Origin: Spirosoma fluviale
Lineage (GTDB): Bacteria > Bacteroidota > Bacteroidia > Cytophagales > Cyclobacteriaceae
Length of the DNA stretch: 51,824 nucleotides
Reading direction: 5' to 3'
NCBI GenBank assembly: GCA_945901615.1
Contig: CAMDLI010000007.1
Location: 1 to 51,824 of the forward strand
In this document: in pieces, positions 31,284-36,093 of the stretch
How the letters are laid out: every line of letters starts with the position of its first letter
Numbering within the stretch: position 1 is the stretch's first letter
The notes under the pieces: generated by a model
Database searches by the model: none
What the model saw: the letters and a program-made list of their open reading frames with translations, nothing else
Told to the model about the DNA's origin: nothing
Made by a program: the position numbers and the translations under genes

Positions 31284-31718
31284 TTACTTTTTCGTCCAAT
31301 AATCAATTACCGTTACCTTATCCAAATGTGGACCCAAGAGTGTTACAAACTCCTTGTGTGCGGGATGTGGGATATAGGTATCACGGTCCGCATCCGAGTG
31401 GAAGGTCACGGTAAAGGCATGCGTTAAACCCTGATTGAGTCCTTCCGGACTAGAGTTGATTCCCCATTCAAAGCCTTTGATCTCGGTAATTTTTGAGGGT
31501 AGTGCTTGAAAAGCTGCGACTATCCCATCAACATCTTGCTGAGAGGAAGTTGCTTTAAATCCAAAAAGGACTACATGGCGAAGAACGGAATCTGGCATAG
31601 ATGCATTATTTAGGTTGGTTTCTGGACTAGTGCTCGAAAGCGTTTCTGCTTCCTTTTCTTTGGGAGCGCAAGAAAGTAGAAGGAGGAAAGAAATGAGGTA
31701 AATCGGGCTATTTTTCAT
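31284..31718 (-). CDS. Dabb (stress-response A/B barrel) domain lipoprotein
   Basis: A 144-residue protein with a lipoprotein signal (ISFLLLLSC, Cys about 17) and a Ser/Thr/Pro linker. The Dabb domain (about 45-140) has the family start LRHVVLFGFKATSS, the middle INSSPEGLNQGLTHAFTVTFHSDADRD in part, and the end YIPHPAHKEFVTLLGPHLDKVTVIDYW in part. Dabb proteins are small ferredoxin-like dimers seen in stress or enzyme contexts; function unknown. It ends near a strong palindrome. Confidence 0.9.
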   Translation of the reverse strand: MKNSPIYLISFLLLLSCAPKEKEAETLSSTSPETNLNNASMPDSVLRHVVLFGFKATSSQQDVDGIVAAFQALPSKITEIKGFEWGINSSPEGLNQGLTHAFTVTFHSDADRDTYIPHPAHKEFVTLLGPHLDKVTVIDYWTKK

Positions 31719-31824
31719 GGGTTTCTGGTTTTGAGGAATGGAGTTAGAATAAGCAGGTGCTTAAAATTCAAAACTAAATCAAGAAGTTGTTAAAGCTAAA
31801 CTTCTTGATTGAAAAAATGAAATA

Positions 31825-31861
31825 AAAAATCCCCAAGCGACTGGGTCACCTGGGGATTTTT
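31825..31861 (-). terminator. Terminator of the cold-shock operon
   Basis: An 11-bp stem AAAAATCCCCA (31825-31835) with TGGGGATTTTT (31851-31861) and a 15-nt loop, 18 nt after the csp stop on the minus strand. Confidence 0.85.
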
Positions 31862-31878
31862 AGCAAGGGAATGTGGAA

Positions 31879-32073
31879 TTACTTGACCACTTTCACGTTA
31901 ACGGCATTGATGCCTTTCTTTCCTTGTACCAATTCGTACACTACTTTGTCATTTTCACGGATTTCGTGAACCAAGCCTGTGTGGTGAACGAATACGTCCT
32001 CACTATTATCAGATGGGGTAATGAATCCAAAGCCTTTGGTTGTGTTAAAGAATTTTACTGTTCCTTCATTCAT
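31879..32073 (-). CDS. Cold-shock domain protein (CspA family)
   Basis: A 64-residue single-domain cold-shock protein that binds single-stranded RNA and melts structure. RNP1 is KGFGFI and RNP2 is VFVHH; the start is MNEGTVKFFNTTKGFG. It is the last gene of a four-gene run (desaturase, DEAD-box helicase, basic protein, csp). Its ATG lies inside the end of the preceding gene (8-nt overlap ATGAATGA), indicating translational coupling. A strong terminator follows. Confidence 0.95.
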   Translation of the reverse strand: MNEGTVKFFNTTKGFGFITPSDNSEDVFVHHTGLVHEIRENDKVVYELVQGKKGINAVNVKVVK

Positions 32074-32326
32074 GATTTTTGAAATTTTGATTTGTTTTTA
32101 CTCGATTTTGATTGGACTGATTTGAAATAAATTTTTTCTCTACTGGCGGTTCTGGAGGAGTATCAGAGATGTTTCCGAATTCATCCACATAAGCGATCAT
32201 GTTATCTAGACTTCCATCTTTTGGTTGTCCTTTTCGCTCAAGCTTCTTCTCCATTTTATCTTTCTGCTTTCTCTTCTTTAGTTCCGCCTTTTGTTTTTTG
32301 ATAAATGTGTTTTGATTTTTTGACAT
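32066..32326 (-). CDS. Small highly charged protein in the cold-shock operon
   Basis: An 86-residue protein that I recognise only by context. The first 40 residues are a Lys/Glu-rich helix (KKQKAELKKRKQKDKMEKKLERK), then a more ordered middle (DGSLDNMIAYVDEFGNISDTPPEPP) and a Lys/Asn-rich tail. No signal or membrane segment. It follows the DEAD-box helicase by 9 nt and overlaps csp by 8 nt. An RNA-binding or helicase-assisting role is inferred from charge and neighbours only. Confidence 0.75.
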   Translation of the reverse strand: MSKNQNTFIKKQKAELKKRKQKDKMEKKLERKGQPKDGSLDNMIAYVDEFGNISDTPPEPPVEKKFISNQSNQNRVKTNQNFKNHE

Positions 32327-32335
32327 GCAAGTGGT

Positions 32336-33529
32336 TTAGTTTACAAATGTGATGGCATGACCTACTTTACCGGCTCTACCTGTTCTTCCGATTCGATGGA
32401 TGTAAGCATCCATTGTCATCGGTAGCTGATAATTGATCACATGGCTCACATCAGCTACATCGATCCCTCTGGCCGCAACGTCAGTAGCTACCAATACTCG
32501 GATGTCCCCGCTCTTAAATTCATCGATCATTCTGTTTCGAAAATTCTGGGACTTATCTCCGTGGATTTGACCGGCTTTGATACCGGCTTGTACTAACTTT
32601 TTAGCTAAACGATCCGCTAGCCTTTTAGTTTCAGTAAATAGAATTACTTTTTCCAATTCTGGGTTTGCGAACAAGTCTGCTAGTACATCAAACTTATCTT
32701 GTCCTTCTGGAACACGAATCGTTTGTTGCTCAATATTTTCATTGGTAGATCCCCCACCAGAAACCTTCACCTCTAAAGGATTAGAAAGTAGGCCATCAAT
32801 CAATTTCTTTTGACCCGGCTCAAGCGTTGCTGAAAACAAGAGTGTTTGATCTCTAGTCCCGATTCGATTGACCAATTTATTGACATCTAAGACAAAGCCC
32901 ATGTCCAACATCCGATCAAACTCATCCAAAACAAGGGTATTTACTTTCCTGAGATCTAATTCACGACGATCTGAAAGGTCTAAAAGCCTTCCTGGAGTGC
33001 CTACAATCACTTGAAGTTTGCGCTGCAATTTCTGGTGATCAGAATTTATATTGGTTCCTCCGATAAAAGTGGCAGAGTAGAGCTGCATACCTAGGGTAAG
33101 CGACTTAAATTCTTCTTCTATTTGCAAGGCCAACTCTCTTGTAGGTGTCACCACCAAGGCAGTGTAGTTTCTAGGATCCTTCTGCGCATGTTCGATGATA
33201 GGAATCAAGAAGGCGGCAGTTTTTCCCGACCCTGTCTTTGAAATCGCCATCATATCTCTTCCTTGGAGGAGGGGTGGAATGGATTGCTCCTGAATGTTGG
33301 TCAGCGTCTGATATCCTTTTGCTAGGATATTTTGAAGCAACTTAGCCGTCAAACCAAGGTCTGCGAAGGTCTTTTCCGTACGGAATCCTTCTTGTCCACT
33401 AGGCTGGGCTTTTTTTACGAAAAGACGGGGATCTAGAGTAGATTCCTTCTTTTTTACCGTTCTGCGGTCCTGATTCCCTCCGCGAGGAGCTGGTGCAGGT
33501 TTGGTATTTTTACTTGTAGAGTTATTCAT
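32336..33529 (-). CDS. DEAD-box RNA helicase (cold-shock type)
   Basis: A 397-residue DEAD-box helicase. Motifs in order: FADLGL Q-motif region, motif I SKTGSGKT, motif Ia PTRELALQ, GG and TPGRLLD, motif II written VLDEFDRM (DEFD instead of DEAD), motif III SAT, and C-terminal VLVATDVAARGIDV, HRIGRTGRAG. The N-terminus is a basic, Pro/Lys/Gln-rich tail of about 45 residues. It unwinds short RNA helices, for example in ribosome assembly at low temperature. It follows the desaturase by 9 nt and precedes the basic protein by 9 nt. Confidence 0.94.
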   Translation of the reverse strand: MNNSTSKNTKPAPAPRGGNQDRRTVKKKESTLDPRLFVKKAQPSGQEGFRTEKTFADLGLTAKLLQNILAKGYQTLTNIQEQSIPPLLQGRDMMAISKTGSGKTAAFLIPIIEHAQKDPRNYTALVVTPTRELALQIEEEFKSLTLGMQLYSATFIGGTNINSDHQKLQRKLQVIVGTPGRLLDLSDRRELDLRKVNTLVLDEFDRMLDMGFVLDVNKLVNRIGTRDQTLLFSATLEPGQKKLIDGLLSNPLEVKVSGGGSTNENIEQQTIRVPEGQDKFDVLADLFANPELEKVILFTETKRLADRLAKKLVQAGIKAGQIHGDKSQNFRNRMIDEFKSGDIRVLVATDVAARGIDVADVSHVINYQLPMTMDAYIHRIGRTGRAGKVGHAITFVN

Positions 33530-33538
33530 TAGTTGGTT

Positions 33539-34639
33539 TTAAGCCTTGACAGGCTGCATTTCTACATTACCAAGGTGGTAAAGCATTTTAGCATGGGCCT
33601 TCAAAGCATCAAAAAATGTCTTTTTTGTATAATAAGGAATATTGTATTCTGCCGCAGTAGCCTTTACAATTGGGGCAATGTGGCGATAATGTACATGGCA
33701 AATGTCTGGGAACAAATGGTGTTCAACTTGATAATTTAAACCACCAATTGCCCAAGAAAATAAGTGATTTTTTTCAGAGTAATTTGATGTAGTAGCTAAT
33801 TGGTGCAGCATGCGCTCTCCCTCAACGATACCAAACTCGTTGGCTTGTGGAAAGGATACTTCTGGCATGATGTGGGCTGTTTGGAAAACTAAAGAAATGC
33901 TAAGACCTGTCACAAAGTGGAGCGCAAGGAACGCAAGTATGATTTCACCAACTCCAAAAGGAGAGAAGGCAATCGGTAGTCCAAGGATAATGAAATAGTA
34001 AACCAATTTCCAAGCAATGATTTTCAACACCGTATTTCGGTATACGTTTTCACCTTTGAACATGCCCATCTTGTAATAGCGGTCAAAGCGGATAAAGTCT
34101 TTAGATGTTACCCAAGAAACCGTTGACAAACCGTAAAAGATCCAAGTATACCAATGCTGAAAGGCATGCATCTTGTTCTTAGGGGCATGAGGAGAAAATC
34201 GAAGGAAAAATGGTGCATTGATGTCATCGTCACCTTCAGGGATGTTGGTGTAGGAATGGTGAAGTACGTTATGTTGAACTCTCCAAACCGTCGCATTGGC
34301 GCCAACTAAATTGAGTGTGTAGCCAAGCAACTTGTTGATTTTAGGGTTCTGCGAATAGGTGCCATGGATGGCATCGTGCATAATTCCCATCCCTATGCCG
34401 GCCATTCCCAATCCACTTGCAACATAGCAAGCAAACAATTGCCAAGTCTGAACCACTGCTCCCGTAGTTACGAGGACAATCGGCACAAAATACAAGCACA
34501 ACATGACAAAGGTCTTGAAGATCATTTCCTTGTTCGCAAACTTAGTTTGTTGCGTAGAAGTGAAATAAGCGTTGACTCTGCTTCTTAAGGTTATGGAAAA
34601 TTCAGACAGAGCTGAATCAGAAAATCGAATGGTCTTAAT
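33539..34639 (-). CDS. Fatty acid desaturase (acyl-CoA desaturase family), probable ATT start
   Basis: A membrane di-iron desaturase of about 366 residues that puts double bonds in acyl chains and keeps membranes fluid. Histidine boxes are HDAIHG (about 88-93), HNVLHH (about 123-128) and QVEHHLFP. The first ATG in frame is at 34525, but the frame remains open upstream with family-like sequence: KTIRFSD, then SEFSITLRSRVNAYF and TKFANKEMIFKTF. Between the TAG stop and 34525 there is no ATG, GTG or TTG codon. ATT at 34637-34639 (or 34640-34642) gives the usual length and the KTIRF start. Other options are ATA, CTG or a recent mutation of ATG. First gene of the cold operon. Confidence 0.88.
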   Translation of the reverse strand: MKTIRFSDSALSEFSITLRSRVNAYFTSTQQTKFANKEMIFKTFVMLCLYFVPIVLVTTGAVVQTWQLFACYVASGLGMAGIGMGIMHDAIHGTYSQNPKINKLLGYTLNLVGANATVWRVQHNVLHHSYTNIPEGDDDINAPFFLRFSPHAPKNKMHAFQHWYTWIFYGLSTVSWVTSKDFIRFDRYYKMGMFKGENVYRNTVLKIIAWKLVYYFIILGLPIAFSPFGVGEIILAFLALHFVTGLSISLVFQTAHIMPEVSFPQANEFGIVEGERMLHQLATTSNYSEKNHLFSWAIGGLNYQVEHHLFPDICHVHYRHIAPIVKATAAEYNIPYYTKKTFFDALKAHAKMLYHLGNVEMQPVKA

Positions 34640-35040
34640 AATGAGGTAGTTTGGGTGAAACTAGTAAATCTTGGTTCTCTAAAGGATGTTAACTGCAGGT
34701 TTTAACTCAAAAAGCAAAGCTTCTATTGAATTAAAAAAGTAGAAGATGAAGAAGTAAAACCTGTGTTGGAGAACTCTTGATTTGCTACTTGTGGCAGGTG
34801 AACCGCCGATGCTAAACTTGATAACAAGTATCGAAGACATTTCCTCGACACACAAGAGTAGGTAGAGAAAACGAGAATTCCTAATTTATTGGAATAAAAG
34901 GAAGCCTAGAGGGCTGTTTCCCAGCACATTTTCATTGGTTCAGTCCTTTGTTAGGTTATCCCCATCATGCATCTTTTCAAGACAGGTAGCAAACCAGCAT
35001 CGGGAAAAATAGAAGGTCCGTTAATCAAATGACCAACGCC
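34640..35040 (-). other. Gene-free stretch upstream of the desaturase operon
   Basis: About 400 bases without a convincing gene. On the minus strand it precedes the desaturase; on the other side it follows the cytochrome stop. Small helices are possible, e.g. ACTTG-ATAA-CAAGT (34815-34829 region) enclosed by CGAT/ATCG, and GGAAGCC/GGCTgTTTCC near 34900-34921. It may hold a long leader with RNA structure for the cold operon and a weak terminator for the cytochrome; no exact TAnnTTTG box was found. Confidence 0.4.
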
Positions 35041-36093
35041 TCACTTAGAATTAGATTTTGCAGCTTTTATGGGTTTGAAGGGACCAAACTTATGTTGCTC
35101 CTCTGAAAATCCGTCAGTAAAAGGCCCGAAGGGATGGTCCATGGGCTTCTTTGAAATATCTGGCCAATCTTGTGAAAGGTCTTTCGTGGGTCGCTCCATG
35201 CTGTTGACATAGGCGGCAAGATCCCAGGATTCCTCATCGCTCAAGATAGGCTGCTCGAATGTCGCGCCCAAGGGCATGTTTGCTTTTACATAGCCTGCAA
35301 ACCGGGAGAGGCGATAAAGCCCTGCTCCATGATTGTAACTCGCTTCTCCCCAAAGTGGCGGATACACATAGCCGGTACCATCCGGTTTGGCCTGCCCTTT
35401 TCCATCAGTCTGGTGGCAACTAGCGCATTGCTTCTCGTACACCAACTTGCCTTTTGCAGGATCTGAGGCACGATCCAATAGTGGCACTTCATAGAGGCCC
35501 GATCCTATTGGTACTTCTCCCTTAGGAACCTCCTTACCCACCCAGTTGATGTAGGCAACCATCGCCTTCATCTCTTTGGAATCTCTCGCCAATGGCTTGC
35601 CGTTGAGACTTCGTTCAAAACAATCGTTGATCCGCTTCTGAATGTCTTCTTCGGTTCCAGACCTCGCTCTGAATTTTGGATAGGTAGCAGCTACGGCACT
35701 GTAATTGTTCCCAAAAGGAGCCGTTCCTGCTTGCAAATGGCAATTTTGGCAGTTCATTCCATTTGAAATGGCTTTTACCTTGCCCTTTGGACCAAGGTAT
35801 TCTGCAGTATTTACTACCAATTCCTTCCCATAGTTCAGCTCTTCCGCATTGGGTTCCTGATCCATAACTGACCAATCAGCTGCTTTCCAAACGGAGGTTG
35901 GATCAACCAATGACTTCACCACAGGGATTTCAACGGCCTCCACAGGTATATCCTGAGGTCCTTCTGCAAGACTTGGCAACTGTACCCCAGATAAAGATAA
36001 AAAAAGCACAAAACCTAGCCCCAACACTAAAGCCATAGAAAGTCCGAGCAGGGCTACAACTAGGGATATAAGCTTAATAAATGGCTGCCTCAT
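35041..36093 (-). CDS. TsdA-like di-haem cytochrome c (possible thiosulfate dehydrogenase)
   Basis: A 350-residue exported protein with an N-terminal membrane anchor (about residues 8-36). It has two c-type haem motifs, CQNCH (Cys115, Cys118, His119) and CASCH (Cys223, Cys226, His227). Between and after them are the TsdA-family blocks YPKFRARSGTEEDIQKRIND, SLNGKPLAR, YVYPPLWGEASYNHGAG and VKANMPLGATFEQPILSDEESWDLAAYVNSMERP in part. TsdA joins two thiosulfates to tetrathionate. Sulfur genes 2.4 kb downstream (YeeE pair, persulfide dioxygenase) support a sulfur role, but the substrate is not proven. Confidence 0.8.
   Translation of the reverse strand: MRQPFIKLISLVVALLGLSMALVLGLGFVLFLSLSGVQLPSLAEGPQDIPVEAVEIPVVKSLVDPTSVWKAADWSVMDQEPNAEELNYGKELVVNTAEYLGPKGKVKAISNGMNCQNCHLQAGTAPFGNNYSAVAATYPKFRARSGTEEDIQKRINDCFERSLNGKPLARDSKEMKAMVAYINWVGKEVPKGEVPIGSGLYEVPLLDRASDPAKGKLVYEKQCASCHQTDGKGQAKPDGTGYVYPPLWGEASYNHGAGLYRLSRFAGYVKANMPLGATFEQPILSDEESWDLAAYVNSMERPTKDLSQDWPDISKKPMDHPFGPFTDGFSEEQHKFGPFKPIKAAKSNSK

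Follow-up and report, generated by a model that had tools for sequence, protein, structure and literature searches.

The fatty acid desaturase gene on the minus strand of the window, that is, of the whole stretch of 51,824 nucleotides analysed here, very probably begins at an ATT codon (34639–34637), a very rare start, as judged from the alignment of homologous genes. Codons of the same class, AUU, AUC or AUA (hereafter AUH), occupy this place in relatives from several families of Bacteroidota, and the pattern suggests that ATT, ATC or ATA is kept there to control the amount of desaturase. With moderate confidence, we favour the reading that this conserved AUH start, on the gene that heads an operon, is limited by IF3 and holds the desaturase at a lower level than the partner proteins of the operon. 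To our knowledge, few bacterial genes have been documented with a conserved start codon that IF3 rejects, among them infC, sigR and pcnB, and no description of such an AUU/ATT-type desaturase start in Bacteroidetes was found in titles and abstract openings of the open-licence literature. The desaturase would add a membrane-lipid gene, spread over several families, to conserved starts of this type, and the finding would tie start-codon stringency to cold adaptation.

The desaturase frame and the codons in its start column

The desaturase frame is bounded upstream by an in-frame TAG (34663–34661) and ends with TAA at 33541–33539; it contains no ATG, GTG or TTG before the ATG at 34525–34523, just as the initial annotation had stated. 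Read from the second of two adjacent ATT codons (34639–34637), the gene (33539–34639) has 366 codons plus the stop, and the resulting 366 residues agree with the normal length of about 366 that had been expected from an ATT start. The 367-residue frame matched the Pfam family PF00487 with an E-value of 8.6e-34 and 117.9 bits (gathering score, 29.7), and three His boxes, HDAIH, HNVLHH and QVEHH, were recognised; a Pfam score above gathering together with the three boxes places the protein among the PF00487 fatty acid desaturases. In both features it is like the acyl-lipid and acyl-CoA desaturases, but it differs from known desaturases in that searches returned neither an NCBIfam model scoring above its cut-off nor a solved structure with an E-value up to 0.001. 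The records nearest to the window sequence were from Cyclobacteriaceae and Algoriphagus.

Homologues were compared at the alignment position of the window codon 34639–34637, called here the column. They were taken from 58 relatives (30 loci), a contig search in which 80 of 141 loci were retained, a sample of 396 members of the class (matches at E up to 1e-105 in 61 genomes), samples of three families with 24, 249 and 46 genomes, and 20 stretches of paralogues and distant homologues; the set consists of the best-scoring loci, not of every match. Identical genes were merged, and the 138 distinct genes classified first were joined by 19 others to give 157. Two loci cut by a contig end (L020, L052) were left out of the count and two more (L011, L054) are partial. 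When a BLAST match started at residue 6 or later, the column was extrapolated without gaps. A gene was classed as AUH-only if it had AUH in the column and its frame, from the upstream stop down to the column, contained no canonical start.

It was found that 84 of the 157 distinct homologues were AUH-only (ATT 42, ATC 39, ATA 3), while 17 had AUH in the column plus an upstream canonical start. Another codon in the column, with a canonical start at or before it, was seen in 55 genes; the alignment, which had been proposed as a way to see whether homologues have ATG there, revealed ATG in the column itself in 16 genes. The one remaining gene (L104) lies outside all classes and is best read as having an ATC start with two extra codons. 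The sampling was uneven, 40 of the first 76 AUH-only genes coming from the window's own group (L001–L056, L161). The AUH-only genera, Algoriphagus, Cyclobacterium, Splendidivirga, Niabella, Christiangramia/Gramella, Eudoraea, Flagellimonas/Allomuricauda, Maribacter, Aureibaculum, Muriicola and Pseudozobellia, span four Bacteroidota families, and two loci (L165, L168) are from other families. The AUH start was also present in the cultured strains Algoriphagus marincola DSM 16067, A. mannitolivorans DSM 15301 and Christiangramia echinicola DSM 19838.

These counts bear on how the codon acts. It is possible, although we consider it doubtful, that AUH is simply a weak start which fixes a low level of desaturase translation with no IF3-dependent regulation. 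Such a start would account for the conservation and the stoichiometry without any sensing, and the replacements by ATG or by an upstream ATG show that the level can be retuned; yet GTG or TTG would serve equally well, and neither occurred in the start column of any of the 157 distinct homologues. The IF3-limited start that we favour has to accommodate the same replacements, since the 16 genes with ATG and the 17 with AUH plus an upstream canonical start indicate that the rare codon is not indispensable. That it can be dispensed with is likewise indicated by ATG genes with an intact operon and by the upstream ATGs of some Flavobacteriaceae.

A tree was built from 137 desaturase proteins with the first ten residues removed. 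The AUH rows fell within one group of 104 rows (SH-aLRT 96) covering Flavobacteriaceae, Cyclobacteriaceae, Splendidivirgaceae and Chitinophagaceae, and 10 gains or losses are required to explain the AUH label on this group. The third base of AUH-only rows switched between T, C and A on at least eight occasions. Because the two earliest branches (L165 and L168, long branches whose placement is unsure) have ATC, AUH may be ancestral in the 104-row group, and in that case the Algoriphagus paralogue and Sinomicrobium/Pricia, among others, may have returned to AUG. An in-frame ATG lies 11 codons upstream of the AUH column in some members of the Flagellimonas/Allomuricauda group; loci of this type are L063, L076, L078, L085, L087, L094, L096, L100, L101, L103 and L106, and the column codon is ACT in L096 and L100.

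Position of the translation start

The initial annotation had allowed either of the two adjacent ATT codons as the start. The second (34639–34637) was retained and the first (34642–34640) was dropped, because the codon preceding the column is unconserved: 18 different codons were counted at this place in 76 AUH-only genes. Codon 2 was AAA, AAG, AAT or AAC in 74 of the 76. The paralogue L111–L117 has its ATG exactly in the AUH column, and an AUH copy was also read in five of the seven genomes that carry it. As a control, we inspected how five neighbouring genes at these loci begin; their start columns were canonical (ATG or GTG) in 152 of 156 cases (cold-shock protein 71/73, small protein 37/38, cytochrome 14/15, MFS 16/16, thioesterase 14/14); the DEAD-box helicase was unusable for this purpose, with ATG in 13/24 and few N-termini that align. 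Upstream of the column, 92% of AUH-only genes have A at −12 and 49% have it at −3 (75 genes). Bacteroidetes are described in PMC6847099 as lacking Shine-Dalgarno sequences and relying on A at −3 and on mRNA structure.

Could translation truly begin at the internal ATG (34525–34523), codon 38 when the start is counted as 0, so that the block upstream of it is not protein? In 73 of 76 AUH-only genes codon 38 is the first internal ATG, a canonical-only gene caller would choose it, and the corresponding ORF is in the ORF list. However, pN/pS, calculated from 20 pairs of relatives of which some share members, was 0.113 over codons 1–37, 0.119 over codons 38–299 and 0.88 in the 15 codons upstream. 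By these ratios the N-terminal block is under protein-level selection and, as ATG-start homologues carry the same block, the earlier claim that it is a real part of the desaturase was upheld. The methionine at codon 38 is kept in 45 of 47 homologues with canonical starts just as in the AUH ones, so its conservation is no argument for a start there; homologues that truly begin at this methionine, which had been named as what would overturn the ATT start, did not emerge. We regard an internal start as very improbable. Should the ATT start be correct, gene callers limited to ATG, GTG and TTG would trim 38 residues off such proteins.

An upstream canonical start feeding the frame through frameshifting, or through termination and reinitiation at ATTAA, is hardly more credible. 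The sequence ATTAA does contain a TAA in another frame that overlaps the start, and a canonical start in one of the other two frames crosses the column in 20 of the 76 AUH-only genes, but the remaining 56, among them the gene in the window, lack one in both of these frames within at most 400 nt upstream, and the sequence upstream evolves without codon constraint. Reinitiation was discarded on the ground that the window and most relatives have no canonically started ORF crossing ATTAA. A sequencing or assembly error with ATG as the true codon might be suspected in a metagenome-assembled genome as fragmented as this one (2.4 Mb, 181 contigs, 74.75% complete), but it has practically no probability left, as the comparison of this base in other strains, suggested at the outset, returned codons of this class in 84 of the 157 distinct homologues, from independent assemblies and cultured strains. 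Error, internal start and frameshifting were each tested and rejected, by homologue columns, pN/pS and the scan of the other frames.

Operon context and the upstream leader

The desaturase is the first of four genes. A DEAD-box RNA helicase (32336–33529, minus strand; PF00270, PF00271) has its ATG 9 nt past the desaturase stop and is followed by an 86-aa protein with no Pfam or NCBIfam match (32066–32326, minus strand; start column ATG in 37/38 loci) and, as the last gene, by a cold-shock-domain protein (31879–32073, minus strand; PF00313; start column ATG in 71/73 loci). With helicase and cold-shock-domain genes adjoining on the same strand, these genes form, by content and order, a cold-shock operon headed by the desaturase, and cold induction is predicted for it. 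A cold-shock-like operon with the desaturase at its head had already been proposed, and the description could be extended to many genomes: Algoriphagus has the same gene order, and at most flavobacterial loci the cold-shock-domain gene directly follows the desaturase. In Christiangramia/Gramella (L065–L073, L083, L088, L093 and others) several cold-shock-domain genes flank the desaturase, up to one before and four after it.

Of the 73 AUH-only genes with enough flank, 71 had a helicase or cold-shock gene on their own strand no more than 600 nt downstream, compared with 6 of 47 canonical ones; the raw table reads 71 AUH linked, 2 AUH unlinked, 19 other linked and 43 other unlinked. When AUH and operon linkage were compared by phylogenetic pairing, there were too few independent events and the median p was 0.5. 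ATG stands in the column with a cold-shock gene still downstream in L232, L233 and L238, while L235, L237 and L239 have AUH with no cold-shock gene in the stretch examined. The idea that AUH and operon linkage change together was not upheld, given the few independent events and the three ATG loci just mentioned, and on these counts the AUH–operon link is an association only.

A leader of about 210 nt (34640–34852 in the window; loci L001–L056 and L161) lies between the desaturase start and a promoter-like pair (34853–34885, minus strand) made up of ATTAGGA (34885–34879) and TACTCTTG (34860–34853). The pair is conserved in the alignment, and we take it to resemble the Bacteroidetes −33/−7 consensus. 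The core of the leader (34692–34818, minus strand; model R1) is structured and strongly conserved: in 14 freshwater relatives 98 of its 127 columns were invariant, compared with 27 of 40 among the first coding positions and 5 of 151 further upstream. Model R1 found exactly one copy in 21 of 24 genomes of the same genus and none in 14 genomes of other genera (E up to 0.01), and in 47 other loci outside the genus it gave nothing under E 0.3; among the loci and genomes searched, the leader appears confined to the window's genus. In 20 cases the copy was just upstream of a desaturase match and in the last one (G015) it was upstream of a remnant. At this locus (L217) the leader, the ATT start and the N- and C-termini of the desaturase are kept and the middle is deleted, which leaves a 94-codon in-frame remnant preceding an intact helicase, small protein and cold-shock operon; the leader or the start may serve the downstream genes there. 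Desaturases of Eudoraea and Flagellimonas/Allomuricauda (L074–L102) have conserved upstream blocks of their own, for example around CAGCTCTCT and AGCAATAGTGC, which are unrelated to the Algoriphagus leader by model R1.

RNAalifold gave a weak consensus for the whole leader, with 2 of 19 pairs double-changed, and two stems, P3 and P4, were therefore named by hand. P3 (34697–34762, minus strand) pairs 34762–34751 with 34708–34697, with 87.3% of cells paired and one double-changed pair. P4 (34700–34738, minus strand) is a hairpin of 34738–34728 with 34708–34700 that could be folded in all 24 sequences tried, although its apical part differs. The two stems compete for one arm and are mutually exclusive, with few compensatory changes, and the shared arm hints at a possible switch. 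A combined structure, B, consisting of CUGC:GCAG, AAGUAG:CUACUU and P4, had 94.2% of cells paired and 7 double-change cells versus 2.0 in shuffles (0 of 500); when slid by +3 columns it also had 7 double-change cells, but just 54.2% pairing. A search of Rfam 15 over 31700–35200 yielded two matches below gathering, both outside the leader, and none in the leader.

IF3 and comparable systems

As set out in PMC10158994, IF3 permits nothing but Watson–Crick pairs at the first two bases of the codon and excludes weak pairs at the third. AUH would match the initiator tRNA at its first two bases and not at base 3, which is the kind of pairing that IF3 excludes, and for this reason initiation at the desaturase would be held low and would depend on the IF3/30S ratio; it is by this reasoning that we infer an IF3-limited start. 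The cold-shock protein, and probably also the helicase, are translated from the same mRNA from an ordinary AUG, and the AUH codon would set the stoichiometry within the operon by damping the desaturase.

How such a start would respond to cold is less clear. In E. coli the ratio of initiation factors to ribosomes rises about 3-fold in the cold (PMC6511846), and IF1 and IF3 are reported to favour cold-shock mRNAs (PMC6511846 and PMC6511841). Since the factors rise and yet favour these mRNAs, whether cold would raise or lower initiation at an AUU start is unpredictable; the factors raised in the cold could repress rather than induce it. If E. coli, where IF3 rises in the cold, is the guide, it is a paradox that a cold-shock gene should have a start repressed by IF3. 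A leader able to form either of two exclusive stems may bring in a temperature response of its own, like the cspA leader of E. coli. We also considered that AUH and a bistable leader together make a cold-tuned initiation switch, in which the leader opens in the cold while the third-base mismatch makes initiation dependent on IF3/30S, and desaturase synthesis lags or limits itself relative to that of the cold-shock protein; this seems to us unlikely. If it were true, several Bacteroidota families would regulate membrane adaptation in part through a start codon.

The cspA thermosensor leader (PMC9947658, PMC6511846) is similar to the desaturase leader in being structured, in having possible alternative foldings and in preceding a cold-shock mRNA; the desaturase leader differs in that it was found only in the window's genus, with its sequence relations checked by Rfam alone, and a thermosensor role would be by analogy. 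For sigR of Streptomyces, PMC5472188 describes a GTC start repressed by IF3, which holds SigR below RsrA. By that account, sigR is like the desaturase in that a non-canonical start heads an operon, is conserved in a group and is proposed to keep the first protein below its partner; an upstream ATG yields a longer form of SigR, to which the 17 desaturase genes with an upstream canonical start are parallel. The two differ in that sigR has GTC, is restricted to one genus and had its repression by IF3 measured, whereas the desaturase has AUU, AUC or AUA in several families and its repression is deduced.

At least five genomes with an ATG paralogue beside the AUH gene, together with the natural AUH-to-ATG replacements, constitute a natural test bed for these ideas.

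The infC gene of E. coli, which encodes IF3, has an AUU start. The desaturase shares with infC, as with sigR, a start outside ATG, GTG and TTG and the conservation of that codon, and IF3 repression would be a further property in common. It differs from infC in its product: infC encodes IF3 itself, which allows direct autoregulation, whereas the desaturase is a lipid enzyme. A search for infC in the window's own genome, whose assembly is incomplete, did not find the gene. In 16 of 16 genomes of the window's genus the candidate start of infC was TTG, and because infC seems to start with TTG there, autoregulation of IF3 through AUH is not seen in this genus. The candidate start was ATT in Splendidivirga and ambiguous in Niabella and Cyclobacterium. 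All 12 flavobacterial genomes examined had no canonical in-frame start in infC and a candidate ATA start within a conserved ATA GCA ATA/ATT, that is, a conserved start of the AUH class as in the desaturase. AUH in 84 desaturase genes and the apparent ATA start of flavobacterial infC strengthen the presumed link to IF3. The flavobacterial infC loci with ATA are L190–L198, L200, L202 and L204.
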